Shown: in pieces, positions 18,052 to 49,176 of the stretch
Numbering within the stretch: the stretch's first letter is position 1
Layout of the letters: every line of letters starts with the position of its first letter
NCBI RefSeq assembly: GCF_003605575.1
Contig: NZ_QKNY01000010.1
Location: 1 to 64,000 of the forward strand
DNA length: 64,000 bases
From: Halonotius aquaticus
Lineage (GTDB): Archaea > Halobacteriota > Halobacteria > Halobacteriales > Haloferacaceae
Direction: 5' to 3'
Translations under genes and position numbers: made by a program
The notes under the pieces: generated by a model
Told to the model about the DNA's origin: nothing
Seen by the model: only the letters and a program-made list of their open reading frames with translations
The model's database searches: none

Positions 18052-18058
18052 TATTATT

Positions 18059-21600: not shown

Positions 21601-21978
21601 AAGATCTGGGACGGCTGTCGGCGATTCAGCGAGGTGATAGGCTGCGATCTGGTTGTGCGTTTTCCCACCGCCGAAACTGGTGTCTAAGCGAAGAATGCCG
21701 TTCGTCCCAGTGTAATCGTTGGTATGGGCACCGACAAACCGCGTTGCAAGTCGTGTCAGTAAATCTTGGAGGCCACCTGTCGGATAGGTCTTCTCGAAGA
21801 ACAATTGCGGATCAGCGTAGACAGCCGGGGCATCACTACTGTGGGCGACATCTGCGAGACTTGCTGCGAATTGTTCTTCAGCCAGCTCACCCGTGAGAAC
21901 ATCTTGACGGGGTTCACAGGCGTCAAAGACGTTTGGAGGTTGATTCGCCGCGCCAGCCGTTGTTGGTGTTTCACTCAT
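18673..21978 (-). CDS. DUF499-type AAA ATPase, first gene of the defence operon
   Basis: 1101 residues. Walker A is DTSFGGGKTHN at about residue 100 (the unusual SFGGGKTH form typical of DUF499 proteins) and Walker B is LILIDEIAAYLE at about 225. An acidic Ser/Gly/Asp linker near residue 900 separates a C-terminal beta-rich domain. DUF499 ATPases accompany DUF1156 methylases and SNF2 helicases in predicted antiviral loci and probably act as the sensor or motor subunit. It is followed by an ATGA overlap. The 190-bp upstream gap contains AT-rich ATATCATATC about 55 bp before the start, a likely promoter. The set resembles the helicase-methylase-ATPase (Hma) class of predicted defence systems. 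Confidence 0.87.
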   Translation of the reverse strand: MSETPTTAGAANQPPNVFDACEPRQDVLTGELAEEQFAASLADVAHSSDAPAVYADPQLFFEKTYPTGGLQDLLTRLATRFVGAHTNDYTGTNGILRLDTSFGGGKTHNQIAAYHLAESPTAVPDLSEFILDDDIAAEYTDAAALGLDVNTAVFVGTHVDAEEARSNYEDPDAPATKTMWGELAYQLFGRDGYEFLRENDENRTPPGTTKLERLFDRNDNPSLILIDEIAAYLEQAAAVEIGDSTLAKQTNTFLMSLLSATQNNDKATVVLSIADTAFADQAEDVRGLVSETIAEFNSISDRVEGSITPTEDNEIAAVLRHRLFETVEKEGRDATVDTYISFYTGDNDSFPDSASNPEHRTRLEESYPIHPTVIDTLTEELDSLPSFQRTRGALKLLSRGVYRLWQEQSESQGRHFVRLFDLHPADGDVRSQLLRLFSSVDMDFEAAIKADIYSEDGTANAEEEDRNWLPNGHPPLGTQLTTTILWKSIVKGADGRGTTRRPLRHAIANTGVELAHYDDALNNLLGEGRRSACFYLHGDNGEKIQFKSEPNLTKLVDSVVEQLQDGLSRRHLEEALDEALGQGSLNVIVGPEEPHEIPDTADEAHLCVMDFDTVTIDDYETVPDTIQTLFKNTASSSGGQKTPRVFKNNVVFLAASANDVTDAKRTAERVAAIKHIQANLGDQYELNGDQQDKLGERLDSAKGTLDQDIKKAYTHLYFPAADGLAHRNVTTDSTIHQSVIEKLDEAGAIIPEGEDAYGVDWFEATIWNVGASAMTTRALEEQFGKRQDAEILLSPIPLRKTIAQLVRDDGYAYWDEEQKTGYYSSEATLTATDHELDDAKNLHAGVGYQDVKLSQSQTLYTSIDELVADIANEIDWEEPEEPDETEDDKGSGESGSSDTGGGSDDDTGPTEIDEPKPFSKLIEVRTSEPAHVSRALQEMRADIADSLTEARDEYDGHPDELTPIVEGVWIKIDGADAWKGAWFTANKLSNETAFADDTAMEFDYEATDGADSTSQFEVDFEGRPDVFASHLRFNMEPEDLATPDGGRTAEAEFAIEFADDDNRLYGDTFDELDDLLAVDNAFTVTMHAQLRVIESSEVTNI

Positions 21979-23953: not shown

Positions 23954-23963
23954 TGTTGGTTAG
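23954..23963. repeat. Half-site of the inverted-repeat family
   Basis: TGTTGGTTAG is present once, overlapping the stop codon of the gene ending at 23960 and 18 bp before the start at 23936. No partner arm occurs within 60 bp. Confidence 0.6.
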
Positions 23964-24349
23964 TTAGTTGCTGCTGTCTCGATCGGGATTTGAAGCCGGG
24001 AGACAGGATATCGGTACTTCTGGATAGCGACACTCCACTCGCGTTTGAACCATGCGAGATATTCGTCGAGCGTGTCGAGATTATCCGTCCAGTCGGGTGT
24101 GCGGGCATTGAGGTCGGCCTCGAAGACAACCGCGATGACACGGTCGTCAGCCGGATGCTGATCGTTCGGGGGTATCTCGGCAACTGGCGTTTCGTCGACG
24201 ATCACCTCACTGGCTGGGCCGAGATCATCGTCGACGACGCGCATCGGTCGGCACTCCTCGATTGAATCTGGGCTCTCTGGCAGCTCGGCGTGTCTGTCGA
24301 CAACACGAGAGCCGACCGGGAGGTGGCCGTCGACAGCGCGGAACTGCAT
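23960..24349 (-). CDS. Hypothetical protein behind cassette gene 24349-24495
   Basis: 129 residues when started at ATG 24349 (MQFRAVDGHLPVG), whose A is shared with the upstream stop (TGATG). A longer frame to 24430 would overlap the zinc-ribbon gene and is rejected. It contains VIAVVFEADLNARTPDWTDN and ends with SRLQIPIETAATN. No family recognised. It is co-transcribed from promoter cassette 1. Confidence 0.55.
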   Translation of the reverse strand: MQFRAVDGHLPVGSRVVDRHAELPESPDSIEECRPMRVVDDDLGPASEVIVDETPVAEIPPNDQHPADDRVIAVVFEADLNARTPDWTDNLDTLDEYLAWFKREWSVAIQKYRYPVSRLQIPIETAATN

Positions 24350-24495
24350 CACAATCCTCCTGGTGAGCTGACGACAGCACTCGCGCGCTGCTGGCCGCTG
24401 TGTCGGCTGGTGGTGTTGCAATCGTCGCACAGTAGGTCACCGGTGTCGGTGAGGGTCGTCGCTGGATCTCCGCAGCGGGAGCAAGTGTATGCCAT
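24349..24495 (-). CDS. 48-aa zinc-ribbon microprotein, cassette gene 1
   Basis: ATG at 24495, TGA at 24351-24349, beginning MAYTCSRCGDPATTLTDTGD and continuing LLCDDCNT. CSRC at residues 5-8 and CDDC at 23-26 form a zinc ribbon. The start lies in the shared promoter-leader cassette (GGAAACCACAATGGC context), although this copy is the most divergent one. The stop overlaps the next start as TGATG. Confidence 0.65.
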   Translation of the reverse strand: MAYTCSRCGDPATTLTDTGDLLCDDCNTTSRHSGQQRASAVVSSPGGL

Positions 24496-24547
24496 TGTGG
24501 TTTCCCTCTAAACCTTACTATAAGATGCAATGGGAAAAAGTTGTTGG
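24491..24547 (-). promoter_or_regulatory. Promoter-operator-leader cassette, copy 1 (divergent)
   Basis: Read on the minus strand it keeps CTTATAGTAAGG around the operator position and GGGAAACCACAATGGC at the start codon, but the left operator arm has several changes and the TATA region is degenerate. Confidence 0.6.
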
Positions 24548-24653
24548 CTCGTGTTGATAACGTCCGAAAAGTACTAAATGAGATTTGAGGGGTAAATCTG
24601 GCCACTCCGTATTCAGGTGGTCTAGCCGTAGGTAGTCTCTATCATTGGCTACT

Positions 24654-24917
24654 CTAATGATCGTGCAGCCAATCGGTGCAGTTATCAGAAAATGTGGTGG
24701 CCCATACACCACTCTTCTTGAACACAAACAGCTCGTCGTTATTATCAATATGCGTTTTCAATTCATCCCGAACGTCAGAGACAGAATCATCCGTGTCTAC
24801 TAACCAGCACGATTCAAGTATATGGCAGAAATCCCCATAGCTCTCAATGGCGTCATGGAGATCGCTGTAATCTTGTCCCGGGTCATTGAGGTCGTATGTG
24901 ATGAGATAAACGCTCAT
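24654..24917 (-). CDS. Stand-alone Cas2-like / SinR-family protein
   Basis: 87 residues from ATG at 24917. MSVYLITYDLNDPGQDYSDL, then CHILESCWLVDTDDSVSDVR and NDELFVFKKSGVWAT follow the ferredoxin-like fold of Cas2 relatives known as SinR-family proteins (first strand, acidic YDL turn, middle strand with WLV). There is no cas1, repeat array or other cas gene in the window, so it is not evidence for CRISPR adaptation. It may be a small nuclease or a toxin-like protein of the VapD/Cas2 fold. AT-rich relative to its neighbours. Confidence 0.65.
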   Translation of the reverse strand: MSVYLITYDLNDPGQDYSDLHDAIESYGDFCHILESCWLVDTDDSVSDVRDELKTHIDNNDELFVFKKSGVWATTFSDNCTDWLHDH

Positions 24918-25288
24918 GTAGGTGTGATTAACCAGAATGGTATTCAAATTTCGCCATCTGTAGTGAAAGTAAAACAAAAACTAACCACAATCAATTTCGT
25001 ATCGGTCTGGGCTTCCATTAGGAATATCTCTCCTTACAACCATTTCGGAGTGTTGAACGCGGGTTTGTCAGTGATTTCCTACATGTGGCTAATGAATCTG
25101 AACCCTAAATTCCCGATTCGAAGACGTACTCTGCAAGTAGGAGAAGCCAAGGAAACCACAATGGCTGTTGAAGCTTCGTTGGCTTCCCCACCGATGGCGT
25201 GATTCGGCCGATGTATAAAGACACCGTCTCTGCTGTTACTCTATACCCTTCTGGGTGTTTTATTTCCCTGTAACCCCTCTGCGTTGAT
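24918..25288. other. Intergenic stretch with a detached copy of the cassette leader
   Basis: No convincing gene. GGAAACCACAATGGC at 25151-25165 on the plus strand is identical to the leader-start of the promoter cassettes, but no operator palindrome precedes it and the frame stops after 13 codons. GTTTTATTTC at about 25257 could be the promoter of the gene at 25289. Confidence 0.4.
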
Positions 25289-25735
25289 ATGTCGTATGGA
25301 CGGTTGATCCTCGGTGCGGCCGGGGCTATCGGAGTGGCAGAAGCGTATCGACGATGGACTACTTCGAAGCATGACCGGCTGCTAAAGAAAGCGTACAAGA
25401 AGGCCAGCCGGGCCGCCGACGATGCTGAGGTGAGGGCTGAACATGGGATCGGTGGTGACGAAGGGAATCGAGATCTCGATGAGATCGATGGTCACCCGGA
25501 TCTCGTCGTCAAAGGGTTCTCGGCAACAAACCTGATTGCTGAGGTCGAAACCCCGGATGTTCTCGATAACAATCCAGGTCACATCATCGATCAACTCGAA
25601 GGCTACGCCCGGCAAGGCTACAAGCGTGTGCTGGTTGTTCCTTCCGGAGCAACCGAGGCTGCGAAAGAGCTGTGTCAGGATATCGAAGGCGATGTTGTCG
25701 TATCAACACCGAGCGGTGTCGCCGATCTAGTTTAG
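25289..25735 (+). CDS. Small membrane-anchored protein with a PD-(D/E)XK-like core
   Basis: 148 residues. Residues 5-20 (RLILGAAGAIGVAEAY) form a weak N-terminal hydrophobic segment, followed by a basic stretch. PDLVVKG (D71) and NLIAEVET (E85, E87) with the following helix HIIDQLEGYARQGYKRVLVV resemble the central strands of PD-(D/E)XK proteins, but the usual lysine is a glutamate, so activity is doubtful. Convergent with the gene at 25755. Confidence 0.55.
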   Translation: MSYGRLILGAAGAIGVAEAYRRWTTSKHDRLLKKAYKKASRAADDAEVRAEHGIGGDEGNRDLDEIDGHPDLVVKGFSATNLIAEVETPDVLDNNPGHIIDQLEGYARQGYKRVLVVPSGATEAAKELCQDIEGDVVVSTPSGVADLV

Positions 25736-25754
25736 TCGATGATCTGCTGAAGTG

Positions 25755-26315
25755 CTACGCCCATTTCTCGACTGTTGTCTGCGTGGAGGTGGCTGTCTCA
25801 CAGTCAATCAAGCCTTCCATCTTGGCGGCCTCGATCCGCTCGGCGTGAGGTTTTCGGATTCGGTGACAACTTGGACGCTCACATTTCTGGCCAGGTGTGG
25901 CTCCACAGTGCGGACAGGCGATTTTTCGAGCTTGTAGCTCATCCTCTGTGGGTTGGAGATCTCGGCCATCCTGTTCGTCGACGATGTCTGCAACGCGGTC
26001 TCGAAACTCGGCCCGGCGGCTGCCGTTTGTTCCTTCGAATCCCTCTGGTGATTCCCACATGGTAGTTCCGTACCAGCCGTCGGCGGCTCTCTCTAGCGTA
26101 AGCCACTGCCGGGGGCTCGGATCATTGGCGTAGATGTTTACCAAGTGATCTACTGTCTCGTGTGGTTCGTCGTCGACATCAACAAGTGGTTCAACACAGT
26201 TGCAACCGACTACGAACCCACCGTCGCCGATCCGCATGATCCGTACGTCGGGGCCGGGGACGGCGTGGTTGTCGCCTGTAACGTGACACTCGTATTCAAG
26301 AACGATCTCGACCAT
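25755..26315 (-). CDS. Protein with C-terminal zinc-finger of the CPxCxAxPGxxC type
   Basis: 186 residues. The first 120 residues are an unrecognised acidic domain. The C-terminus has CPHCGATPGQKC followed by C and H residues (PSCHRIRKPHAERIEAA), a pattern found in small phage and plasmid zinc-finger proteins. It is the third gene of the unit beginning with promoter cassette 2, starting 6 bp after the previous stop. Confidence 0.65.
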   Translation of the reverse strand: MVEIVLEYECHVTGDNHAVPGPDVRIMRIGDGGFVVGCNCVEPLVDVDDEPHETVDHLVNIYANDPSPRQWLTLERAADGWYGTTMWESPEGFEGTNGSRRAEFRDRVADIVDEQDGRDLQPTEDELQARKIACPHCGATPGQKCERPSCHRIRKPHAERIEAAKMEGLIDCETATSTQTTVEKWA

Positions 26316-26321
26316 GATGCC

Positions 26322-26723
26322 CTACTCTCGCTGGCTATTTTGCTTGGGCTTGAGCTCGATCTCAGAGAAGCCCGTCCTCTCGACGATGTGGAACGAACGC
26401 GTCCCGTCGTCCTCGATCACCTCGAAGACATCAGTCGGAGAGGCTGAGGGGACACCGTGGCGGGCCCGCTGTTCACGGTTAACGACCTGTCCTTGGGCGC
26501 GGTGATAGGCGGCTTCTATGTCGGTCGTACCGACGATGCTCTCAACTGGGCGGTAGAGTGTATCAATATCCGCTAGCGAAACCGCCTGGTCACCGCGGCG
26601 AATGTCGTCTTTCGTAAACTTGTACTCACGGTCGCTGTCGAACGCACTCCGATCCAACTGGTGGATTGTAACCGCACCGGCTGGTGGTGTCGCCGTCGGG
26701 AGTGTCGGTGTTAGTGTCGTCAT
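26322..26723 (-). CDS. Hypothetical protein in cassette unit 2
   Basis: 133 residues from ATG at 26723, which leaves an 11-bp gap to the previous stop; an earlier start at 26738 would overlap that stop. It has a Pro/Thr-rich beginning, then DREYKFTKDDIRRGDQAVSL, and a C-terminal strand FEVIEDDGTRSFHIVERTGF. No family recognised. Confidence 0.6.
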   Translation of the reverse strand: MTTLTPTLPTATPPAGAVTIHQLDRSAFDSDREYKFTKDDIRRGDQAVSLADIDTLYRPVESIVGTTDIEAAYHRAQGQVVNREQRARHGVPSASPTDVFEVIEDDGTRSFHIVERTGFSEIELKPKQNSQRE

Positions 26724-26734
26724 GCTTGGCTCCC

Positions 26735-27034
26735 TCACTCCGTGGTCGGGTCGACTGCGCCCGATTCGTCGAACACTTCGTAGCCAAGGTTGGCGATGTT
26801 ATCCATGATGGTCTTGACATTCCGGTAAACCTGCGTTTGGTCGTCGGCGAACGCTGGGGTATCGCAGACGAACACGTCCCGCGTATCGCCGTAGCCGTTT
26901 TTGATGGTCGTTCGTTCTCGAACGATCCCAAGTCCGAGCCCGCGACCGGGATGGAAAATCTGGTAGCCGAGTAGATCCTCCGGCTGAAGCTCGTTCTCGT
27001 AGTTGTCGGCCTTGACCGTGAGGTTGTGTGCCAT
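26735..27034 (-). CDS. Hypothetical protein, cassette gene 2
   Basis: 99 residues, MAHNLTVKADNYENELQPED, with a beta-rich middle (GYQIFHPGRGLGLGIVRERT) and an acidic C-terminus. FHPGRGLGLGIV is a beta-turn motif like those of small CarD/SH3-like domains, but this is a weak resemblance. The gene starts within promoter cassette 2 and leads a three-gene unit. Confidence 0.6.
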   Translation of the reverse strand: MAHNLTVKADNYENELQPEDLLGYQIFHPGRGLGLGIVRERTTIKNGYGDTRDVFVCDTPAFADDQTQVYRNVKTIMDNIANLGYEVFDESGAVDPTTE

Positions 27035-27085
27035 TGTGGTTTCCTCGTATATCTTATTATAAGATGTATCAGTAAAAGTGTTTCG
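27030..27085 (-). promoter_or_regulatory. Promoter-operator-leader cassette, copy 2
   Basis: Minus strand: CGAAA (BRE), CTTTTAC (TATA), the 15-bp palindrome ATCTTATTATAAGAT at 27051-27065, GAGG and ACCACA before ATG-GC. This order fits a repressor site between TATA box and start of transcription. Confidence 0.75.
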
Positions 27086-27110
27086 GAATCAGGAGAGACT
27101 CTAACCTAAC

Positions 27111-27141
27111 TGAGTGAAACAACAATCAGATTGGCTATATT
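27111..27141 (+). repeat. 31-bp dispersed repeat, copy A
   Basis: Matches 53134-53164 (opposite strand) at 30 of 31 positions; core CAACAATCAGATTGGC. It lies between the divergent genes starting at 27034 and 27241. Confidence 0.7.
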
Positions 27142-27240
27142 ATTAATAGCTGACACACAATGTGCGTCTTTCCATTCTAATCCCCCGGTTAGGTATGTAA
27201 TCCTCCGAGGGTTTTTAAATAGCGAATTGTGATAATTAAT

Positions 27241-27585
27241 ATGCGCTCAATTGGGTCATGGGCCTTCGGCCTTGTCTTTTTCAACGGGAAGATCCATATC
27301 CGATTGCCGTTGGAAATTCATAACGCTGTCAAAATTTGGTTGAGTAAGATTCAAATCTGGTGGTCTGACCTGCCAATTCCCTCACAAGAAATATCGATAC
27401 CAACGCTTGAGTTATTCAATCAGATTAGCCCCACGGGAGAGATTAGTGAGACGATCCCCTGGGTCATCGTGATAGTACCGTTACTAATCAATCTGAAAAA
27501 CCGAATCAACAGTAAATTTGGAATCTGCACACGTGCCGAACCCGGAGAGAAAATCTCCGCTGGTATAGTACGAGTGAAAGAATGA
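27241..27585 (+). CDS. AT-rich small protein with a hydrophobic segment
   Basis: 114 residues from ATG at 27241; GTG at 27229 is an alternative. It has an amphipathic beginning (GSWAFGLVFFNGKIHIRLPL) and a membrane-like segment IPWVIVIVPLLINL near residue 80. Unrecognised. AT-rich, in a small island between two cassette units; probably cargo. Confidence 0.5.
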   Translation: MRSIGSWAFGLVFFNGKIHIRLPLEIHNAVKIWLSKIQIWWSDLPIPSQEISIPTLELFNQISPTGEISETIPWVIVIVPLLINLKNRINSKFGICTRAEPGEKISAGIVRVKE

Positions 27586-27772
27586 GAAGTGAATGATGGA
27601 TGGCACTGCTTACTAATCCCCTATTTTTGTAGTCGCTCGAATCTCATGTCTAAATCCATCACAGTAATGAGCAATAAACAGCGAGATTGTTGTATTCTAT
27701 AAATAATATCAGATAATGTCTAACAGTATATCAATGAAAAGAATTAATTCTCAATAAGAACGATCTTGAACT

Positions 27773-28000
27773 ATGACAGCAGGAGATATAATCGACGGAC
27801 TACTGGCAAAGAAGTCGATCAGCTTGATTATTTCATTTCTAATACCGCTCTTGCTTGGAGGTGTTTTGCTTGGTATACCAGCTCTGGGGCCTGAACTGAG
27901 TATAATACCACCTGTGTTAATTGGTGTATTGGTCTCTTGGATGCTGGGGTCTGCATATGGAAAAAGGAAAATCTATCGTAAAGTAGGAAACAAACGGTAG
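27773..28000 (+). CDS. Small two-helix membrane protein
   Basis: 75 residues: two hydrophobic helices (ISLIISFLIPLLLGGVLLGI and IIPPVLIGVLVSWMLGSAY) and a basic tail GKRKIYRKVGNKR. No family recognised. Followed after 11 bp by a short palindrome that may terminate the transcript. Confidence 0.55.
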   Translation: MTAGDIIDGLLAKKSISLIISFLIPLLLGGVLLGIPALGPELSIIPPVLIGVLVSWMLGSAYGKRKIYRKVGNKR

Positions 28001-28011
28001 TGTCACTTTGG

Positions 28012-28024
28012 GAGATTTAATCTC
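28012..28024 (+). terminator. Possible terminator palindrome
   Basis: GAGATTTAATCTC is a perfect 6+1+6 palindrome, followed by TTATCTT, 11 bp after the stop of the small membrane protein. Archaeal termination needs mainly T-runs, so this is tentative. Confidence 0.35.
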
Positions 28025-28119
28025 TTATCTTGCACAGCTCAAACTCTTAGTTTTGAGACAGGTATCGCTGTTTCACATCTTCGGTAAGAGCCTCGGTTGC
28101 AAGCGATACGAGATAGCAG

Positions 28120-28509
28120 CTATTCGGTGAAGGAACTGAGGTCTACCTGTCCGGATGAATTGGCGTCAGTCGTGTCGTTGTTCGGCTCGTCGTTGAAGTC
28201 ATCGCTATGCTCAGCATCCGGATCGGGTCGGTTGGGCTCCCGGTAGGCTACCGGCTCGACGTCGTCGCCGTCCATGATCTGGCTAGCTGTCGACAGCGCG
28301 GTTTCGCGGTCGACGTTCTCTGCGAAGATCGGGCTCGGATTCTCAAAACCGGCGACCCCAAGCACATTCCACTGTCCGGCTGCTGGATTCTCACTTGTCA
28401 TGATCGCAATCGACCGGCCGGTGTCGGATTCGACAAACGAAACGTGGTGATCGATTGCTGTCGACGTAACCCAGCCGGCGGGTGGGTCGGTGATCGTTGG
28501 ATGGCTCAT
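28120..28509 (-). CDS. Hypothetical protein in cassette unit 3
   Basis: 129 residues from ATG at 28509 (MSHPTITDPPAGWVTS). The N-terminal half is beta-rich (HHVSFVESDTGRSIAIMTSE) and the last 45 residues are an acidic Asp/Asn-rich tail. No family recognised. Starts 2 bp after the zinc-ribbon gene. Confidence 0.6.
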   Translation of the reverse strand: MSHPTITDPPAGWVTSTAIDHHVSFVESDTGRSIAIMTSENPAAGQWNVLGVAGFENPSPIFAENVDRETALSTASQIMDGDDVEPVAYREPNRPDPDAEHSDDFNDEPNNDTTDANSSGQVDLSSFTE

Positions 28510-28511
28510 CG

Positions 28512-28667
28512 TTACTTGTGATCTTCCCATCTAATCCATTCGGCTCCACACTTCGGGCAGGTGAGACAGACCTTCACGCGTGGCCCCTCATCTTTTTCGT
28601 AGCCGACCGGTTCCGTGTCACCACACTGCGGGCAGTCATATCCCGGTCGTACACTAGCTAGAGCCAT
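28512..28667 (-). CDS. 51-aa zinc-ribbon microprotein
   Basis: ATG at 28667 shares its A with the upstream stop (TAATG), TAA at 28514-28512. CPQC at residues 12-15 and CPKC at 37-40 form a zinc ribbon; the product ends EWIRWEDHK. The layout is like the other microproteins at 3979, 23137 and 24349, each placed behind or between small unknown genes. Confidence 0.65.
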   Translation of the reverse strand: MALASVRPGYDCPQCGDTEPVGYEKDEGPRVKVCLTCPKCGAEWIRWEDHK

Positions 28668-29164
28668 TAGTTCTCCTCCTCTGTAATGTCGTTGGGATCG
28701 GTCGCTCGCGGGGCCAGCAATACACGGCCGTCGTCCATCTCGAAGACAACAGGGGCCTCATTTTTCGAGTTGTGCATCCGGGCTTGGGAAAGGATCGGCT
28801 TGATGGTCGTGTCGCCGGCGTCGGCCAACCGTTCGACCAGCTCGGCTTTGAGGACATGGGCCACGTCGTCCAGCGTAAGGACGAATACGTCGATCTCGTC
28901 GCCGTCGGCTTCCTCAATCCCGCGCCACCAATCGCCGACCGGCCGTTCTGCGTACTCTTCGACCGACATTATGATCGGGAGGTCGGCGTCTTCGGGAACC
29001 CACATCGCAGTGTGAGCCTCGTTAACTGCACATCCCGGTACCCGATCCCGTGAGGATAGCGTGCCGTCGTTGTCGAAGTGCTCAATGAATTGATTCCGGG
29101 TTTGACTGTCAACCGATTCGAACCGATCTAATGCAGCCTGCCGACTTGTGAAACTGGTTGCCAT
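28667..29164 (-). CDS. Hypothetical protein, cassette gene 3
   Basis: 165 residues from ATG at 29164 (MATSFTSRQAALDRFESVDS). An upstream in-frame start would lie inside the operator palindrome. It contains PIIMSVEEYAERPVGDWWRG and a C-terminal beta strand PVVFEMDDGRVLLAPRAT. No family recognised. First gene of a three-gene unit. Confidence 0.6.
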   Translation of the reverse strand: MATSFTSRQAALDRFESVDSQTRNQFIEHFDNDGTLSSRDRVPGCAVNEAHTAMWVPEDADLPIIMSVEEYAERPVGDWWRGIEEADGDEIDVFVLTLDDVAHVLKAELVERLADAGDTTIKPILSQARMHNSKNEAPVVFEMDDGRVLLAPRATDPNDITEEEN

Positions 29165-29215
29165 TGTGGTTTCCTCGTACATCTAAGTATAAGATGTATC
29201 GGTATAAGTATTTTG
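29160..29215 (-). promoter_or_regulatory. Promoter-operator-leader cassette, copy 3
   Basis: Same order of elements as copy 2; one arm of the palindrome has a mismatch (ACATCTAAGTATAAGATGT on plus) and the TATA region is slightly changed (TACTTATAC). Confidence 0.7.
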
Positions 29216-29269
29216 ATTTCCACTCTCTTCACAGAGAGAGCTGGTGCTCTCCAATTCAAAATATGTAAT

Positions 29270-30079
29270 TCATGGAGGGATATCTAACCCTGGGCCATCA
29301 CCGCCAGCACGGACTGCGATATCGCAGGCTATCTCAAGTGATTCAACGAGAGCTGAAACATCTTCCTTGCTAGAAATTACGGTTCGGTTCCCGTGCATCA
29401 CCTTATTTCGGTACTTCTCAACCGTGTCAAACGCTTCTTTACATTGTGTCTTCGAGGGAAAATCTAGCTTATCTAGGAGATCTTTGTTATTTCTAACTAC
29501 CTCTTTCAGATCCGCGATAGACATAAACTCAACAGGATGAAGATTCACGTTTTCGTCGACTGCGTTACTCCATCTGTCTATTGCGCCCCCTCTTGGACGG
29601 GCCTCTTCGTAGATTTCTTCGATTTCATCGATATCATAGTGCTCACTAATCAATTCGGATACTGCTTTCGCCATCTCAGCATAATAGGTAAACAAGAATT
29701 CCTTCGCAGTCCTTGTATTCAAATCTGCAGGTGTGACAATCCGCCAAGAATCTCTATCGGGATGTGTCGCTAACGCAAATGGATGTTCAGTCAAGATATT
29801 AATGCAGTACAGCATTATTTGATTGTACCTGACGTACTGATCTTCATCGATAGGGTGGATTTCTCTGGTCTCTACCTCATAGTATTCGCGAGAATTGTAA
29901 GGTCTGAGCGGTGCGTAATCGAATCCCTCTTTCTCAAGATCGCTGAGTATATCTTCTATCAAATCATCCTGTCCGATCTCATTCTGCCCAATAAAGTAGA
30001 TTAGAGAACCAAGTTCTTTTGAACTCCCCTCACTCGGGTAGCGAATATAGTCCTCAACCTCTTCCTCGCTCCAATACAT
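29270..30079 (-). CDS. AT-rich protein with a HEPN-like R-x4-H motif
   Basis: 269 residues, soluble, mainly helical. YRNKVMHGNRTV at about residues 224-235 contains R-x4-H, the active-site motif of HEPN ribonucleases, within a helical C-terminal domain as expected. The N-terminal half has acidic helices (MYWSEEEVEDYIRYPSEGSS). It stands alone between cassette units and is AT-rich, so it is likely cargo. It could be a defence or toxin RNase; many HEPN-like proteins are inactive, so this is only a candidate. Confidence 0.5.
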   Translation of the reverse strand: MYWSEEEVEDYIRYPSEGSSKELGSLIYFIGQNEIGQDDLIEDILSDLEKEGFDYAPLRPYNSREYYEVETREIHPIDEDQYVRYNQIMLYCINILTEHPFALATHPDRDSWRIVTPADLNTRTAKEFLFTYYAEMAKAVSELISEHYDIDEIEEIYEEARPRGGAIDRWSNAVDENVNLHPVEFMSIADLKEVVRNNKDLLDKLDFPSKTQCKEAFDTVEKYRNKVMHGNRTVISSKEDVSALVESLEIACDIAVRAGGDGPGLDIPP

Positions 30080-30184
30080 ATAGAATAACAGTGAAGTCGA
30101 GAATCAAAACATTTCTGTCCACTGATCTTATATTTGTTAGATGTTCAAGAATCTACTCAGGAGCATATTCGGCCCTTTCCGTGA

Positions 30185-30628
30185 TTACAGCCGGCGGGCC
30201 TCCTTCTTCTGTTCATACAGGCGGTCGGGATTGACATAGTCACGCCGCCGGGCATCATGTTCTGCGATTTGCTGGTGAAGCCCGCGTTCGGTCAGCTCCA
30301 CATCAGCCATAATTTTGTCGACGTAGGAATCGACTATCTCAGCAGCTCGATCATAGGCGTGTCCGTCCAAGTCGTCGGGTGCCTGATCCTCTTCGACTGC
30401 GTCAAGTAGGACATCCTCCGCCGTCCATCGGATTTCCTCGTTCAGCGTATCGACATCGGGACTTGTATCGATATCGCCGTTTGGTGCGTGTAATTCCGTG
30501 TCGATGAGTTCGTTCCGTTTCCGTTCGGCGGCTAGCTGAGCCTCTTGCAGTACCTCTTCGGTGATAACGGCCTTGACGGCCTCAGCGATCTGCTCTTGGT
30601 CGGTGGATTCGGTAAGGTCGGGTGCCAT
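30185..30628 (-). CDS. Acidic helical protein, cassette gene 4
   Basis: 147 residues from ATG at 30628 (MAPDLTESTDQEQIAEAVKA). It is nearly all helix with many Glu/Asp and ends in DARRRDYVNPDRLYEQKKEA, a basic tail. No family recognised. Single-gene unit under promoter cassette 4. Confidence 0.6.
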   Translation of the reverse strand: MAPDLTESTDQEQIAEAVKAVITEEVLQEAQLAAERKRNELIDTELHAPNGDIDTSPDVDTLNEEIRWTAEDVLLDAVEEDQAPDDLDGHAYDRAAEIVDSYVDKIMADVELTERGLHQQIAEHDARRRDYVNPDRLYEQKKEARRL

Positions 30629-30677
30629 TGTGGTTTCCTCACATCTTAGTATAAGATGTATCGGTAAAAGTGTTTCG
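30624..30677 (-). promoter_or_regulatory. Promoter-operator-leader cassette, copy 4
   Basis: Has the perfect 19-bp palindrome ACATCTTAGTATAAGATGT at 30641-30659, CTTTTAC as TATA box and CGAAAC as BRE on the minus strand, then GAGG and ACCACA before ATG-GC. This is the best consensus copy. Confidence 0.8.
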
Positions 30678-30726
30678 ACTCGTAGCTACCGACCAACTCC
30701 GAATCCCACCGATAGGGGAACCAAAC

Positions 30727-31722
30727 CTATCGTTCGGCTTCGATAGCGTCGATAATCGTGCTGGCTGTCGACGTGATACGATCTAGTCGCTCTTCGATTT
30801 CTTCCGGTTCGTCGTCGGTCCATGCAGCCACGTAGAACGCGCTGCCAGAGGCGTCAAGGCCGAGCTTGCGACTGACGACGTAGGCAACAGCTTCAGCCTC
30901 AAGCTCTCGTGCAGCCTCCTCCTGGCCATCTATGCTGGGACTGTGCAGCTCGGCGTGGGCGATCTCGTGAACGAGGATACTGACAGCCGCGGCGTGAGTT
31001 TCGACCTTCGCCCGGATCGTCGCCGGATCGTCGTATCGACAAAAGCCGTCTTCGGGTCGGTTCCACTCACTGGCTGGAACGGCCTCGACGTTGTAGCCGA
31101 GGGCTTCGCCGGCGGCGATGGTCGGCTCGAACAGCTCGCCGGCGTCGCCGGTCGCGTCCGTCGGTAGCTCCGGCAGCGGCTCGCCTTCGGTCTGGCTCAC
31201 GTCGAACACAGGGGCGGGGCTGAATCCGCAAAGGATCTCGCCTTTCTCCCATTCCTCGTTGGGGTCGATCTCCCACGTCTCGGGGTCGGTGCCGGCGCGG
31301 TCACACGCTAGATCATCGTTCCATTCGTGGTAGCTGGGAGCATTGCCACACTGCGGGCACTTGTGCGATGTAACCGTATTGGGCCGCCAAATCCAAATTG
31401 CGGATTCATCTTCCTTGACATGGCGGTCGAATTCGTTTTGCCACGTATGGAAGCCTGCAACCCGCGTAGCGTTGGGCTTCTGCATCTTGATGAGCATCGC
31501 GTTCCGGCTGCTGTAGTCGTGGAAAGCGGCCTGTGCATCAAGCCACTGCTGGAACACGTCGGACTCTCGGGCCTCGTCAGCTGCGGCGATGAGGTCGTCG
31601 ATCATCGCCCCCATTTCGGCCTCCATCTCGTCGTCGCGACTGTCCGTGTCCTCGAAGGTGACCGGCGACCGCTGTTCGACTTCCGTACTGAGTGATTCGA
31701 GGGTTGCCTGATTCGTTGCCAT
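30727..31722 (-). CDS. ArdC-like antirestriction protein with metallopeptidase motif
   Basis: 331 residues, cassette gene 5. The N-terminal domain (FQQWLDAQAAFHDYSSRNAM, then MQKPNATRVAGFHTWQNEFD) is the ArdC single-stranded-DNA-binding domain. A zinc-ribbon-like insert starts with CPQC at about 122. The C-terminal peptidase domain has HEIAHAELH at about 253 and a downstream E in EAEAVAYVVSRKLGLD. ArdC proteins are carried by conjugative plasmids and protect incoming DNA from restriction. Here it fits the conjugation cluster at 35-51 kb. A single-gene unit under a shared operator, so it may be induced together with the other cassette genes. Confidence 0.85.
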   Translation of the reverse strand: MATNQATLESLSTEVEQRSPVTFEDTDSRDDEMEAEMGAMIDDLIAAADEARESDVFQQWLDAQAAFHDYSSRNAMLIKMQKPNATRVAGFHTWQNEFDRHVKEDESAIWIWRPNTVTSHKCPQCGNAPSYHEWNDDLACDRAGTDPETWEIDPNEEWEKGEILCGFSPAPVFDVSQTEGEPLPELPTDATGDAGELFEPTIAAGEALGYNVEAVPASEWNRPEDGFCRYDDPATIRAKVETHAAAVSILVHEIAHAELHSPSIDGQEEAARELEAEAVAYVVSRKLGLDASGSAFYVAAWTDDEPEEIEERLDRITSTASTIIDAIEAER

Positions 31723-31773
31723 TGTGGTTTCCTCGTATATCTTAGTATAAGATGTAGTGGTATAAGTGTTTCG
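31718..31773 (-). promoter_or_regulatory. Promoter-operator-leader cassette, copy 5
   Basis: Palindrome core ATCTTAGTATAAGAT at 31739-31753, CTTATAC TATA region, CGAAAC BRE and the common leader before the ArdC-like start. Confidence 0.78.
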
Positions 31774-31850
31774 GATTGGGATGGTGATCTCGATTACTGG
31801 CTGCGGAATCGCTCGAAAAATACGGATCGCTCGACTAGCCGCCGGCCGTC

Positions 31851-32132
31851 TTAGGCGGGTAGTTCGTCGATATCGAACACTGGTAGGTTCGTCGTTGCTC
31901 CGACACCAAGCCCGCGGGCTCGGAGTGCGTCACGGATCGCTCCCCAGTCGCTTACGTCGGCGAATCCGGCTAGCTCTTTCCCCGGCAAGTCGGCCTCGAC
32001 GAAAACAAGCAGGCCTGCACCCGTGTCGGCGACGGTGATTTCGTCAGGTTTTGCTGGTGGGGCAGCTGCCGGCTGGTTTGCGGTAAATGCGGTCGTTGTT
32101 TCGCGTCGTTCGCTAGTGAGGTTAGTTGCCAT
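31851..32132 (-). CDS. Hypothetical small protein, cassette gene 6
   Basis: 93 residues from ATG at 32132 (MATNLTSERRETTTAFTANQ), with an Ala/Pro-rich linker and a compact end ADVSDWGAIRDALRARGLGV. No family recognised. Its first four residues are the same as those of the ArdC-like protein, reflecting shared cassette sequence rather than homology of the body. Confidence 0.6.
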   Translation of the reverse strand: MATNLTSERRETTTAFTANQPAAAPPAKPDEITVADTGAGLLVFVEADLPGKELAGFADVSDWGAIRDALRARGLGVGATTNLPVFDIDELPA

Positions 32133-32181
32133 TGTGGTTTCCTCACATCTTAGTATAAGATGTAGTTGTAAAAGTGTTTCG
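32128..32181 (-). promoter_or_regulatory. Promoter-operator-leader cassette, copy 6
   Basis: Perfect palindrome ACATCTTAGTATAAGATGT at 32145-32163 with TATA CTTTTAC, BRE CGAAAC and the common GAGG leader. Confidence 0.8.
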
Positions 32182-32200
32182 ACTTGCCGCGGGTGTTGGC

Positions 32201-32491
32201 CTAGATCACGCCGAGCTTCACCGCGGCCCCTCGAACCCGGCTCGCCGTATTGAGCCAGTGGGGATTTGTCGATTCCACGTCGCCGACGGCCTCCATCAGT
32301 CGCTCGACCTCCGCGGCTGTTACCGTGATTTCGTCCATGATACCAGCGTCGGCGATCTTCTGGTAGATCGGTTCATCCGGGCGGAGATATCGCAGGTACG
32401 TTTCCCGCCCGGCGGCGTTGATTTTCACTGTGGCTGTTCGGCCCGTTGGTTGATTTCGTTCGGGCTGGTGGACTGCCGACATCTCGATCAC
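32201..32491 (-). CDS. Hypothetical small protein in cassette unit 7
   Basis: 96 residues from GTG at 32491, overlapping the upstream stop as GTGA; ATG at 32482 is the alternative. It contains ATVKINAAGRETYLRYLRPD and EITVTAAEVERLMEAVGDVE. No family recognised. Follows the SWIM-finger gene. Confidence 0.6.
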   Translation of the reverse strand: MIEMSAVHQPERNQPTGRTATVKINAAGRETYLRYLRPDEPIYQKIADAGIMDEITVTAAEVERLMEAVGDVESTNPHWLNTASRVRGAAVKLGVI

Positions 32492-32898
32492 TCCATGTCA
32501 GGGGTGCCGGCGATAACCCCCTCGGCTGGGGTAATCTCGATTTCCGCGTCCGTGTGTTCCCCAAGACTGGGATCGATATCGTACCGTTCGGCCACGTTCG
32601 CCGGGATCGGCCACCGACCGAGCGCAAACCGCGCCCGCCGTAGGTGCTTACATCCGAGCGTTGGATCACGGTGTTCACTATCCGGGCACTCACAAGTGTT
32701 CGACTGTAGATCGACAAGGTAGCTACTGCCGGATTCACTGGTTGCCAAGACGAGGTCATCGGCTCCTGCCGCCCGGCCAATGTCCGGCGTAATCGTAATG
32801 TACTGTTCTAGGGCCCGCTGAGTGCGGTCGGGAAGATCGACTGCTTCGGGGTTGCTGTCCGACTCGTTGTTTTCGCTACGTCGGGAACTGATTGCCAT
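32488..32898 (-). CDS. SWIM zinc-finger protein, cassette gene 7
   Basis: 136 residues from ATG at 32898 (MAISSRRSENNES). C69-x-C71 and C83-x-H85 (YLVDLQSNTCECPDSEHRDP and LGCKHLRRARFALG) are a classic SWIM domain, which binds DNA or proteins. Haloarchaeal SWIM proteins are common on plasmids and viruses. Two-gene unit under cassette 7. Confidence 0.78.
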   Translation of the reverse strand: MAISSRRSENNESDSNPEAVDLPDRTQRALEQYITITPDIGRAAGADDLVLATSESGSSYLVDLQSNTCECPDSEHRDPTLGCKHLRRARFALGRWPIPANVAERYDIDPSLGEHTDAEIEITPAEGVIAGTPDME

Positions 32899-32947
32899 TG
32901 TGGTTTCCTTACATCTTAGTATAAGATGTAGTGGTAAAAAGGTTCCG
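32894..32947 (-). promoter_or_regulatory. Promoter-operator-leader cassette, copy 7
   Basis: Perfect palindrome at 32911-32929; the BRE/TATA end is slightly changed (GGAACCTTTTTACC on the minus strand). Leader AAGGAAACCACA-ATG-GC. Confidence 0.78.
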
Positions 32948-33130
32948 ATTTTGGATATTGATCTATTGGAGTCAATCCCGATGCTGTGAAGGAGTTTTGA
33001 GTCTTCTCCCGGCGGTACACTCAGGAGATCAGGTGAGAGCTTCGATATGAAATAGAGCAATCTTACAACAGAAGTTGCTGACGTGACAGCGGAAACAGCA
33101 GCAAAAACAGTTGATAGCTAATTACAAAAT

Positions 33131-33412: not shown

Positions 33413-34707
33413 GTTAATGTATGTTGATATATAAACCCGATTATTATCCAACCGATCTGGTTTGGCGTGCGGCGTATGGTCGCCGGCGGCACCGCGGCCC
33501 GCGTTCGGCGGTGGGGACACCGGCTAGAGCGCAACTGATGGGGTGTCGATCGTCGTCGACAGTGGGGTGTCACCTGGTCATCGCACGGGCGAGTGTCGGT
33601 TCTGTCGTCGATAGTCTGGGTGTCAGGCCTGTACTCCAACAACAGAGAGTAACAATATCGTCCACACTGGGTGTCCCACCGGAAGCGACACCGGGTGTCA
33701 AACCAGTTTTCAAGCTCAGTCGGGGATCGGGCTTCACATCGTCAGTTCGGATACCGGCCCTGTCGTCGACGACGCCTGTGGAGACGGGTGTCGGCCTGAG
33801 ACCGGCCTGACTCTTGGCCGCCAGAAAGAACCGGCCTGGCGGGCCTCGACGCTGACTGTGGCAGCCACACTGCGGAGGTCGGGCAGTGACGGGGTCGTCG
33901 GTCAGTGAGCTGTTTCGGTGCTGGTGGGTGGCTGGCTGTGGTGCAGTGCTGTGTGAGAAGTCGTCGGTTTGTGAGGCGGTGCTGTGCTGTCGCTGTTGCT
34001 GTTGTTGTCGCGGTACGGTGTGAGGAGTCGTCGGTTTGTGAGCTGGGCTGAGCTGTTGCTGTCGCCGGCGGCCACCGCAGAAATCGTGACCGGGGCTTGT
34101 CGTCACCAACGCCGCTATCAACCCTGTCGGCCACACCGGGCTGTCGGCATCGTCGACGCCGCCGCTGTCCACACTGTCGAGGCACTCGACACCCACACCT
34201 GTCGCTGGCAAGATCGACACCCCACTGTCGCCACCAGGAGTCCTGCCCAGTCGATCGTTGAGGCCGCTGTCCACACCAGAGAGCTCGTCGGGATTGACCT
34301 CGTCGTCGACGCCGCAGCGGGCCACGCTGAGATGCCAGGTGGGACACCCAGACTGTGGTCGTCGAAGCCGGCGGTACCACCACTTCCTTCGGGGTCGACA
34401 GCCCTGTGGTCGCTATATACACTTCCTGATAGGTCGGTGTCGACACAGCCGGCTTGCTGTGTGTTGTTGGCTGGCCACTGTCGGCAGTAGTACTCGGCAG
34501 TAATCCTATCGGGCCACCCTTGAGTGGCTCATTTCCCTGGTGGGATCGCCTCGAAGAGTAGTCTGTCGGGCTCACCACGCTACGCGGCTTTTCTCACTTT
34601 GCTTTCATGCTTGTTTGTCGGCCTTGCCTCCCTCGGGTGGGTATCCAGCCACTGCTGTTAGAACTACTCGATCCCCCTCTATTTCCGACGCAGTGCGGTA
34701 TCGATGC
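33413..34707. other. Long repeat-rich region without a convincing gene
   Basis: About 1.3 kb. GGGTGTC occurs six times in 33541-33792 (at 33541, 33565, 33618, 33669, 33693, 33786), often after TCGTCGA and before CCTG. The reverse motif GACACCC appears at about 34187, 34213 and 34347, and the 15-mer CGACAGTGGGGTGTC near 33557 recurs inverted near 34212. The left part is G/T-rich and the right part C/A-rich on the plus strand. GCCAC...GTGGC hairpin near 34512-34527. Long frames exist on both strands but their translations are low-complexity and contradict each other. It could be an origin, a transfer origin or a degraded repeat gene. Confidence 0.45.
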
Positions 34708-34791
34708 GGATAATTTCGGATAATTCGACTGAATAATTATCTTGAAAGTTAGCCTTCAGGGCAATATAGTTCAGGATAATTTTGGATAATT
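34708..34791 (+). promoter_or_regulatory. Four GGATAATT sites upstream of the winged-helix gene
   Basis: GGATAATT at 34708, 34718, 34774 and 34784: two pairs, each with a 10-bp period (one DNA turn), 66 bp apart. The second pair abuts the TATA-like TTTTATT about 27 bp before the ATG at 34821. This is the layout expected for cooperative autoregulation. Confidence 0.6.
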
Positions 34792-34820
34792 TTATTAGGC
34801 ACTAAAATCTGATAGTAATT

Positions 34821-35516
34821 ATGTCTGAATCTGAGAGTCGATTGAGTACGCTGGATCAGTTGGGGATTGATATTCTAACAGCACTGGTCGACCATGATGG
34901 GGAAGCTGACAGCACTGCACTGAGAAAGTATCTCGGGATGAGTGATGATTCAGCACGGTCGAGATTTAATTATCGAGTTACTGAATATTTAGAACCAGAA
35001 GGGCTTATAGAAACCCACCAACCAGACCCTGAGCCGGGGAAGTTTCCACCTAAGATATTGAGGCTCACAGAAGAAGGTCAAGAGTTGTTAGAAGATCTTA
35101 ATTCAGAGTCTGCAAGTAGTGGTATCGCTGATCGACTACAACGGTTAGAAGAACAAGTTGATGGGCTCCGACAGGAGAATCAGAAACTTCGCGAGGAAAA
35201 CCGGGAATTGAAAGAGTTAATTGAAGAATCTGGTGTTGAAGCAGTAACCAACCGGGTAACGGAGCTTACTGAGAACGTAGATCGGCTCCAAGCCAAGATG
35301 AGCAATATGCGGGACACTATCGAAGAAACCCAGACCCACCCTCTCATACAATCCACAGAAACGGCTGAAGGGTTCGATGCTATGTTGGTAACAATGAACG
35401 CTTGTCGCCGGATTATCGAAGAAGAGATTGAAGATGGAGAAGAACGAGTCAAACAGGAGCGGGCTGATGTTCGAGAAACACTTTCAGAACGCGGCCGCTT
35501 GCTCACCAACGACTAG
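34821..35516 (+). CDS. Winged-helix coiled-coil DNA-binding protein
   Basis: 231 residues. Residues 8-75 form a winged helix (LDQLGIDILTALVDHDGEAD, then STALRKYLGMSDDSARSRFN and a wing ending in KILRLTEEGQELLEDL). Residues about 95-170 are a long coiled coil (RLQRLEEQVDGLRQENQKLR and onward), and the C-terminus is helical. Such proteins occur in haloarchaeal plasmids near conjugation genes; a partition or regulatory role is possible. Four GGATAATT sites cover its promoter. Convergent with the coupling ATPase gene, only 4 bp apart. Confidence 0.75.
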   Translation: MSESESRLSTLDQLGIDILTALVDHDGEADSTALRKYLGMSDDSARSRFNYRVTEYLEPEGLIETHQPDPEPGKFPPKILRLTEEGQELLEDLNSESASSGIADRLQRLEEQVDGLRQENQKLREENRELKELIEESGVEAVTNRVTELTENVDRLQAKMSNMRDTIEETQTHPLIQSTETAEGFDAMLVTMNACRRIIEEEIEDGEERVKQERADVRETLSERGRLLTND

Positions 35517-38500: not shown

Positions 38501-38958
38501 GTTTTTCCAGAGCCAGTCGTTCCCGAGATCCAGACGTGTTTCCGCATGGCTTCATGCCGGATCGGGGCGGCCGCAAAGCCACCGTGGCCGGTTTCGTCAT
38601 AGCCGAACCAAAACTCCTTCTCGGAGTTGTACTGGGCACTCTCCCAGACCTCACGGGCGTCTTTGCCCGCAATCGGGCCATTGCTCACTGTTTCCGATTT
38701 TACCTGCTCACCGCCGGCGTACTCACGCTCGGTTACACGAACCTGATAGGCATGACCGTCAGGGAGGTAGTCTGACTCGGGCTGTTCTGGTTCATCAAGT
38801 GCTCCGGCTTGCACCTCCCGCACCATGTCATCGTCAAACTCATCAGCGAAGTTGACCGTCGGCGCACTATTCGACGCGCTCGAATCGGTGGCCCCTTTCG
38901 CCTCGCCGTCGGTTGATGTCGATTCGTCGGTATTGTCGGAGTTTCCAAAGCCGAACAT
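35521..38958 (-). CDS. VirD4/TraD-like coupling ATPase of the conjugation cluster
   Basis: 1145 residues. Walker A ISGTTGSGKTTFL at about 146 is followed by CHVDPKADGDTIDLLRSLP. Walker B FLHLDEFEKVA is at about 404, and then MRTPGREDANIL. This matches the HerA/TraD-type motors that bring DNA to a type IV secretion channel. About 650 residues follow the ATPase core, including long acidic linkers and a beta-rich region (GERVFYNKTNKLRFDSGNRI), an extension well beyond usual VirD4 size (600-700 aa). No membrane helix at the N-terminus. Starts 2 bp after the partner gene at 38961; last gene of the cluster. Confidence 0.82.
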   Translation of the reverse strand: MFGFGNSDNTDESTSTDGEAKGATDSSASNSAPTVNFADEFDDDMVREVQAGALDEPEQPESDYLPDGHAYQVRVTEREYAGGEQVKSETVSNGPIAGKDAREVWESAQYNSEKEFWFGYDETGHGGFAAAPIRHEAMRKHVWISGTTGSGKTTFLQNKAVHHAFAGHGFCHVDPKADGDTIDLLRSLPSHRLKDVVFLEPGSSDFDRNIGINMLDMPPLDDEMEREKEIESRLQNLTAIFHNDDYWGPTMAAVTESMGRAMLKHNAEVAADPAADPSEKYSIIDMFFILLNQERREEFAADVSDPYVSEFLESIAEMEDEKLWPLLKRIKRWVENGVVRKIIAERDSSIDWDQIVDEGKILLVRIPVDNEDVHQMITLTVLRNLWSAKKRQVRDPDRDKEPYFLHLDEFEKVANDNLAMEDMLVRARSFWLSVTIGTQYPGQIGESHPKTLRAMDNNCNTILSMRTPGREDANILMSNYDGYDNSDLQSLDAFRTWTKVLLEGGKEGDPINVKTFPPYPPLWDEQQAQQAIEHSLQQYGTPTLSEQQIRNELKFGHIGDLVNPAAAMDGEAPEEMATDAEMVLEMVPEDVFLEAIYAAQVQHADTETAVPKSLVEDELEKRVGDVGFSSEISNAFESNNMVKREGKVDGELAVSLTDHGLNTVLSHDTGSSASGGGDDHRRILNESYQVFTKLGALTSLPTQEGDELPDGVADLPRDPMDEADTVAEANEIREQMIEDYPQLWELSNGRDISIEAETSTIKKPQQTLTNLRKAIEAGRTCIFTCKDATSDDTESHGITYWPKRGEKVIYDTDGQTVDYSTITCVSETFDTGERVFYNKTNKLRFDSGNRIAVAPDHDDHQSLVWREQGNVVAVVSKRSGSEDKTITQFSDPELAVDPPVETTLHREKVNDKWVVKTGEGDDAEVEDVYDELDALQEDYIDLYEPFIPEVEFPRPVEDDDFTFMVFPDDDNQDHDEPVIVEHGRATKLSEYVEDDVEAVETNTQSPDTEDRAPESSEEPSDPTPTPESSPDPAESSTQTPPSEATINPHELTDELDSIDLGILKTWASGTALPRGDGFEKFVDAVENVTPAAADYLDQPEDIPTVMGVGTAGSSQSPNRSSDNGDDTETDDEVGDSDGKEDRWLA

Positions 38959-38960
38959 GA

Positions 38961-40778: not shown

Positions 40779-40780
40779 AC

Positions 40781-42538: not shown

Positions 42539-42591
42539 AGAGATGGCTTCCTAAACAGTATTTAAAATGATTTTGTGGATTGTGTACCACT

Positions 42592-43371: not shown

Positions 43372-43449
43372 GCGTCATTCAAATAATATATTATACAAAA
43401 ACCCACTGGAGAGATAGTGTGCTATTTCACACATTCTCTTAGCTACAAG

Positions 43450-43491: not shown

Positions 43492-43495
43492 TATT

Positions 43496-49175: not shown

Positions 49176-49176
49176 A

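Follow-up and report, generated by a model that had tools for sequence, protein, structure and literature searches.

Why should seven clustered genes with unrelated products on a haloarchaeal plasmid begin with the same short sequence? The question is raised by contig NZ_QKNY01000010.1 of Halonotius aquaticus (assembly GCF_003605575.1; 2.47-Mb genome in 18 contigs), of which 64,000 of 69,659 bases were analyzed (hereafter, the window). A cassette of about 56-58 bp heads seven minus-strand units, which start at 24495, 27034, 29164, 30628, 31722, 32132 and 32898. It comprises, in this order, a stretch resembling a B recognition element (BRE) and a TATA box, a 19-bp palindrome (8-3-8; ACATCTTA-TAC-TAAGATGT), a GAGGAAACCACA-type leader (with AAGG in the 32898 copy and AGGG in the 24495 copy) and the start ATGGCA. 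The cassette set is a real, plasmid-specific regulon. With slightly better than even confidence, and by analogy to bacterial plasmids, we take the seven units to be an establishment set under an operator-bearing promoter, and we infer repressor binding, coordinate control and transient expression. The seven cassettes and an eighth, partial copy are located as follows.

32893 to 32948, minus strand: cassette 1; operator at 32911-32929, an exact palindrome; operator-ATG spacer of 12 nt
32127 to 32182, minus strand: cassette 2; operator at 32145-32163, exact; spacer 12
31717 to 31774, minus strand: cassette 3; operator at 31737-31755, one change; spacer 14
30623 to 30678, minus strand: cassette 4; operator at 30641-30659, exact; spacer 12
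29159 to 29216, minus strand: cassette 5; operator at 29179-29197, one change; spacer 14
27029 to 27086, minus strand: cassette 6; operator at 27049-27067, two changes; spacer 14
24490 to 24547, minus strand: cassette 7, the most diverged; operator at 24510-24528, four changes; spacer 14
25149 to 25165, plus strand: eighth, orphan copy, consisting of leader and ATGGC without a recognisable operator; it precedes a 13-codon open reading frame (ORF)

Palindrome matches and alignment both place the seven cassettes where a sequence-only reading of this DNA had put them. With up to three mismatches allowed, the 19-mer palindrome has 10 strand matches in the window versus 0.01 expected, and in an alignment of the window against itself (22-160 nt repeats with E no higher than 0.01) the seven cassettes are the sole family with at least three copies. 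Mean pairwise identity is at background (0.22-0.31) as far as 23 nt ahead of the operator and 0.57 over the BRE, 22-17 nt ahead of it. It is complete (1.00) at operator positions 3-8 and again at the ATG and codon 2, and declines to 0.38-0.49 across codons 3-6 and to 0.25-0.31 beyond. The sharp edges of conservation described in that reading are thus found at the BRE, while the one after codon 2 is qualified by a slight excess in codons 3-6. CGAAAC, CTTTTAC and the palindrome had been listed as common to all seven genes; the elements are indeed there, but exact copies of the motifs number only 4/7, 3/7 and 3/7, respectively. The alanine at residue 2 had been ascribed to a conserved GC; it is encoded in 7/7 by the full codon GCA. 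The 24495 copy is the outlier, being changed at 4/19 operator positions, devoid of CGAAAC and carrying TTTTTCC in place of CTTTTAC. Over all copies, five operator changes are in the half-site far from TATA, one is in the near half-site and two are central. The gene bodies were correctly called unrelated (an all-versus-all phmmer comparison of the seven first proteins gave nothing better than E 0.01), and the palindrome in front of them does lie between TATA and start, as a repressor-type site would.

Does this palindrome act as DNA, or as a folded nucleic acid? It lies at a constant distance from TATA in 7/7 cassettes, and either 12 nt (three copies) or 14 nt (four copies) from the ATG; because the TATA spacing is fixed while the ATG spacing varies, the site is tied to the promoter. 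The archaeal TATA box lies about 26-27 bp before the transcription start. Transcription is therefore predicted to start where the palindrome ends or at the GAGG, which would place the palindrome where a bound protein would block the polymerase. To judge from its sequence and position, the palindrome looks like a DNA operator, not an RNA hairpin or a single-strand promoter. A hairpin in the leader RNA, acting post-transcriptionally, is very unlikely: the three perfect copies do form stable single-strand folds (z -3.1 to -4.0), and another haloarchaeal plasmid has a stem-loop leader in repeated copies (see below), but the palindrome keeps step with TATA, not with the ATG, and BRE and TATA are positioned for a start at or after its end. 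Compensatory changes in the eight palindrome pairs, which would also be expected of a hairpin, number zero, in a weak test where four pairs never vary and shuffles equal the observation; among the pair cells, 4/56 are broken and 2 are G-U.

The least probable of the readings considered is that the cassette works as an Frpo-type single-strand promoter when single-stranded DNA enters the cell. In bacteria, Frpo promoters drive leading-region genes (PMC11541004); here, too, a hairpin is near a promoter on a plasmid with genes resembling those of a type IV secretion system (T4SS). At minimum energy, some bases of the TATA stretch are paired in the folds of 3/7 cassettes: in 24495 and 27034 their partner is the leader, and in 30628 it is the BRE, within a small hairpin of its own. 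These three pairings, however, differ from each other, and the centroid folds of the single-stranded DNA leave the TATA stretch unpaired in 7/7, bar one end base in 32898. Because no TATA pairing is common to the folds, a Frpo-like promoter is unlikely; moreover, the conserved palindrome contains neither BRE nor TATA. Rfam gave no match above the gathering score in the window or in three other loci, among them those of pHH126 and the Haloarcula marina plasmid (see below).

Grouped by adjacency and strand, the genes behind the cassettes form seven units with 13 genes, all encoded on the minus strand.

32488 to 32898, minus strand: unit 1, first gene; 136-residue SWIM-type protein, named from annotated haloarchaeal plasmid relatives
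32201 to 32491, minus strand: unit 1, second gene, overlapping the first; 96 residues, no family
31851 to 32132, minus strand: unit 2; 93 residues, no family
30727 to 31722, minus strand: unit 3; 331-residue ArdC-like protein with an HEIAH motif
30185 to 30628, minus strand: unit 4; 147 residues, acidic
28667 to 29164, minus strand: unit 5, first gene; 165 residues
28512 to 28667, minus strand: unit 5, second gene; 51 residues, zinc-ribbon-like, matches below cut-offs
28120 to 28530, minus strand: unit 5, third gene; 136 residues, no family
26735 to 27034, minus strand: unit 6, first gene; 99 residues
26322 to 26738, minus strand: unit 6, second gene; 138 residues, YodL-like (PF14191, 24.8 bits, cut-off 24)
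25755 to 26315, minus strand: unit 6, third gene; 186 residues, phage zinc finger (PF24623, 1.2e-9)
24349 to 24495, minus strand: unit 7, first gene; 48 residues, zinc-ribbon-like, matches below cut-offs
23960 to 24349, minus strand: unit 7, second gene; 129-residue ORF that begins at the stop of the first gene

The ArdC-like label given from the sequence alone is sustained: the protein is about 55% identical to proteins annotated as ArdC-like, it matches a PHROG for anti-restriction proteins (1e-8), and it reaches 22.4 bits with the Pfam family ArdcN (cut-off 22.6). The SWIM-type protein has no Pfam SWIM match (it matches a PHROG of unknown function, E 9e-35), and the zinc ribbons stay below cut-offs. 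The gene that follows the SWIM gene in three other plasmids has no clear kinship to the 96-residue gene (16-22% identity). Seven of the 13 products (99, 138, 147, 165 and 93 residues, ArdC and SWIM) were searched against the plasmid collection. ArdC and SWIM have many matches there, the 93-residue protein has a single partial relative on a Halorussus plasmid (48% over 55 residues), and the products of 99, 138, 147 and 165 residues have no match. The 99-residue protein also has no relative in the 391 other genomes searched or in the viral contigs, and for the 165-residue protein there is no match in the viral contigs. Structure prediction with AlphaFold gave an uninformative model for the 93-residue protein (predicted local distance difference test, pLDDT, 48). 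The single-sequence model of the 147-residue protein has six helices (mean pLDDT 78) and no match in the PDB at E 0.001 or better.

The plasmid location assumed from the start is supported by 116 identical bases at the two contig ends and by the presence of T4SS-like genes. On the grounds of the shared ends, the contig is taken as an apparently circular replicon of about 69.5 kb; it carries a ParA-like gene. The T4SS-like block adjoins the regulon but is outside of it.

35521 to 50307, minus strand: T4SS-like block
35521 to 38958, minus strand: TrwB/VirD4-like protein, Pfam TrwB above cut-off
40781 to 42538, minus strand: TrbL/VirB6, Pfam TrbL_3 above cut-off
46407 to 49226, minus strand: VirB4-like protein, Pfam AAA_10 above cut-off

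By these profile matches, a coupling protein, a VirB4-like ATPase and a mating-channel protein are present as parts of a conjugation apparatus; the NCBIfam matches of the T4SS-like proteins to VirB4 and TraD are below cut-offs. An ArdC-like member, orphan products and a T4SS-like block on one plasmid fit the context of establishment.

How would such a set operate? The cassette would combine all elements of an archaeal promoter with an operator of its own, and this one plasmid uses it seven times. TATA-binding protein and transcription factor B (TFB) would bind BRE and TATA. The palindrome would occupy the space from TATA to the expected transcription start, and a dimeric repressor bound to it would obstruct RNA polymerase in all seven units simultaneously. 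The GAGG leader, the ATG and the alanine codon would provide ordinary translation initiation and move together with the promoter. In a settled host, the repressor would silence all seven units; when the DNA enters a repressor-free cell, the units would be switched on briefly, until repressor accumulates. If this is true, the plasmid has a compact establishment-type regulon of 13 genes, several without recognisable relatives, in an archaeon, and the orphan products are candidates for archaeal anti-restriction or anti-defence proteins. The operator is a sequence handle for finding the controlling repressor, and zygotic induction in archaea would become directly testable in culturable haloarchaea.

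The closest working analogues are the establishment regulons of the Bacillus plasmid p576 and of R388. In p576, similar promoter and operator sequences (EGeRS2) precede ardC and other variable operons in one plasmid region, and the remaining regulon members are mostly of unknown function; Reg, a ribbon-helix-helix protein, controls its own promoter, and Reg operators are found on one side of a promoter or on both (PMC8708921). The Halonotius plasmid likewise has near-identical promoter/operator sequences before several clustered operons, with an ardC-like member. In contrast to p576, with its bacterial promoters and autoregulated Reg, it has BRE/TATA and one operator between TATA and start. 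Because the defining feature, an autoregulated repressor, was not found, the system is said to work like the p576 kind and is not called a member of it. In R388, ArdK and StbA are repressors common to several promoters, including that of ardC, with an overshoot after transfer (PMC3937220); this plasmid is bacterial, and its repressor genes are known and autoregulated, whereas the plasmid described here is archaeal.

Three further systems are less similar. In pLS20, a conserved sequence (EGeRS1) precedes ardC and four other operons (PMC8708921); unlike the cassette, it is 420-750 bp long and has multiple inverted repeats, no strong promoter was found in it, and it is nearer to the pHH126 stem-loop leaders (see below). 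F55 of the Sulfolobus virus SSV1 is an archaeal repressor encoded by the element itself, which acts on several early promoters via sites overlapping BRE and start (PMC5569661); it differs in serving virus lysogeny, in binding tandem repeats, not a palindrome, and in targeting its own promoter. The Frpo/ssi sequences of F-like plasmids are promoters, likewise repeated, from which incoming plasmids express anti-defence genes (PMC11541004); their promoter elements are within a folded hairpin, a fold for which the cassette has no consistent counterpart. Such a regulon in an archaeal plasmid was not reported among the matches listed in a literature search covering open-licence PMC papers, and no word starting with "archaea" is found in the main text of a 2024 Nature survey of anti-defence genes in leading regions (PMC11541004).

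Which protein would bind the operator? A repressor fold is absent from 12 member proteins according to Pfam, the 13th having been scanned by NCBIfam only. Scans of many plasmid ORFs with Pfam, PHROGs and NCBIfam gave only weak helix-turn-helix or ribbon-helix-helix candidates, among them the following two.

3602 to 3982, minus strand: candidate repressor; ribbon-helix-helix protein, weakly CdrS-like (below cut-offs), with no operator in front
57895 to 58728: candidate repressor; PadR-like protein

Further candidates are a wHTH-like protein (34821-35516) and two members of the regulon, namely SWIM and the zinc-finger product of unit 6 (25755-26315). The lack of an autoregulated repressor, the weak candidates elsewhere on the plasmid and the several products without known relatives would also suit a co-regulated regulon that responds to stress, copy number or growth state under a host or plasmid regulator, with the ArdC-like gene being one cargo among others. 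We consider this possible but rather doubtful. Apart from one match at chance level, the other contigs lack the operator, which argues against a host regulon, and ArdC together with orphans next to T4SS genes suits establishment better. The chance level is derived from the whole 2.47-Mb genome: with up to three mismatches, the palindrome pattern finds the seven sites and one three-mismatch match on another contig, and the reversed control pattern matches equally often (once per strand).

Beyond the genome of Hnt. aquaticus, the cassette was not encountered. The full cassette pattern matched only the species' own genome among 392 genomes of the order, and no credible copy came from pattern searches of the collections genome_contigs (~85,000 species) and viral_contigs (2.9 million) or from a blastn search of the plasmid collection. 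Relaxed-pattern matches in three bacterial records and one viral contig (G+C 0.37) do not have leader and ATG in place and were judged to be chance matches, as were, by eye, single matches to GAGGAAACCACNATG in each of six other genomes, all without the operator. In the phage collection, blastn gave weak partial matches to two records, both at the same place, which cover 32 of the 90 nt with 87.5% identity (E 0.07). ArdC relatives are present in 85/139 genomes of the family (own included), viral ones being 26-35% identical, and the coupling protein also has many relatives. In the loci fetched for relatives of these two proteins (a minority of the matches listed), leader plus ATG is absent except by chance; a 12-base leader match beside ArdC in another genome was dropped, there being no ATG in place. 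Repeat scans of 19 ArdC regions, 11 further loci and 6 annotated regions retrieved other repeat families, some with 5-7 copies. Those that were read look like insertion-sequence ends, iterons, CRISPR or coding repeats; the remaining 11 families each have at most two copies within 80 nt before an ORF; and the only resemblance to a per-gene promoter or leader family is that of the pHH126 leaders. To judge by these searches, the cassette is specific to this plasmid line within the collections covered.

A cassette confined to one plasmid line could also have spread passively, as a recombination hot spot or as a strong promoter that was repeatedly co-opted, with no common regulation. The orphan leader-only copy at 25149, which is a probable remnant of a lost member, would be in line with this, as would a segment between units 4 and 5 (29270-30125) whose identity to a plasmid of Haloferax gibbonsii is 83% (the match covers 9% of a 9.5-kb query) and which shows turnover within the cassette region. 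Nevertheless, the palindrome is kept in 7/7 copies while the flanks are at background, and recombination alone fails to explain a symmetrical site retained at a fixed TATA spacing, so that passive spread is highly improbable.

Several results weigh against the establishment reading. The 16-base GGAAACCACAATGGCA is invariant in 7/7 cassettes, with 0/112 changes compared to 8/133 in the operator (Fisher p 0.008, in a comparison picked post hoc and with 4/8 operator changes supplied by the 24495 copy). Being stricter than the operator, the leader may have its own constraint beyond the translation start, for which efficient translation is the simplest explanation. The test for structure by compensatory changes is weak. 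No operator-like site was found before other genes of the 69.7-kb contig, the next best site scoring 12.3 bits versus at least 24.4. No relaxase was found among the Pfam-scanned proteins, which represent part of the ORFs, and no oriT (origin of transfer) was identified, for which reason transfer is only inferred. ArdC is the only one of the 13 genes with a plausible establishment function, and the ArdC-like protein has no NCBIfam or PADLOC match besides being just under the Pfam cut-off. Finally, ArdC relatives elsewhere are without the cassette: 29 upstream regions of relatives with about 55% identity in other genomes lack it and have a different leader. The sequence-only reading had cited the ArdC-like gene as support; the member is real, but its link to a common regulatory sequence does not extend to these 29 regions.

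A different kind of repeated leader is seen on the Haloarcula hispanica plasmid pHH126, where TTTT[CG]TG followed by a stem-loop (with GGGTG in the loop) precedes many genes, including those for ArdC, SWIM and TFB. Examples are given below.

11188 to 11215: pHH126 stem-loop leader
12407 to 12434: pHH126 stem-loop leader
15230 to 15255: pHH126 stem-loop leader

A Haloarcula marina plasmid has the same type of leader in a less regular form (e.g., at 5745-5771 and 12770-12796). A mechanical scan of pHH126 found 13 leaders on one strand, 12 of which are upstream of annotated starts, and 1 on the other, and a blind repeat scan gave two five-copy families located at the stem-loop leaders. An 18-row set was picked by hand and eye (T-run, GGGTG) from 14/19 pHH126 and 4/15 Haloarcula marina upstream regions; one row with misplaced coordinates was kept and one pHH126 motif region (start 19665) left out. 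In this set, 86.5% of the stem cells pair. Stem cells changed on both sides number 18 versus 9.3 (sd 2.1) in shuffles, and the covariation score is 0.395 versus 0.204, with 0/500 shuffles reaching the double-change count or the score; as the rows were hand-picked, these figures lean upward. Pairs with a double change (4 vs 3.9) and pair types (10 vs 10.4) are not above shuffles. The pHH126 leader is thus repeated and mostly pairs, and covariation is suggested. It recalls the structured EGeRS1 of pLS20, compared to the operator-type EGeRS2 of p576. It is tempting to speculate, though we regard it as doubtful, that haloarchaeal conjugative plasmids run their own establishment regulons, in which a private switch has been copied before ArdC, SWIM and orphans, in one line a DNA operator in the promoter and in the pHH126 line an RNA stem-loop leader. 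This would be convergent with the two kinds known from the pLS20 family, and the orphans would be archaeal anti-defence proteins.

Some further features of the plasmid were noted. The interval separating the cassette cluster from the T4SS block includes about 1.3 kb (33460-34800) that have no recognisable genes and contain short direct and inverted repeats; this repeat-rich stretch (~33.5-34.8 kb) may be an oriT or another origin. Repeated GGATAATT motifs are found at 34691-34791, ahead of the gene at 34821, for which a coiled coil is predicted. A small Cas2-like protein (weak Pfam match, E 0.013) is encoded between cassette units at 24654-24977. A defence locus at 11549-21978, with a low-G+C stretch at 16-18 kb, codes for a helicase (best PADLOC match BrxHI, also HmaA), an HmaB-like methyltransferase (DUF1156), a DUF7680 protein and an HmaC-like DUF499 ATPase.

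A further inverted repeat, TAACCAAC-N23/24-GTTGGTTA, has 103 sites in 847 kb, distributed over 32/38 haloarchaeal stretches (several stretches are from one plasmid, and two overlap, so that about three sites are counted twice). The spacer is 23 or 24 in 90/103 sites; an everted control gave 0 sites and a direct control 1. A literature search by the repeat sequence gave nothing relevant among the matches listed. The repeat is present in 14/25 genomes searched, own included. The genome of Hnt. aquaticus has 15 sites, 7 of them on one other contig, none on the remaining 16 and 8 on the plasmid contig, as given below.

7754, 9976, 22427, 23096, 43451, 59122 and 59939 of the window, and 65258 of the contig: TAACCAAC/GTTGGTTA sites

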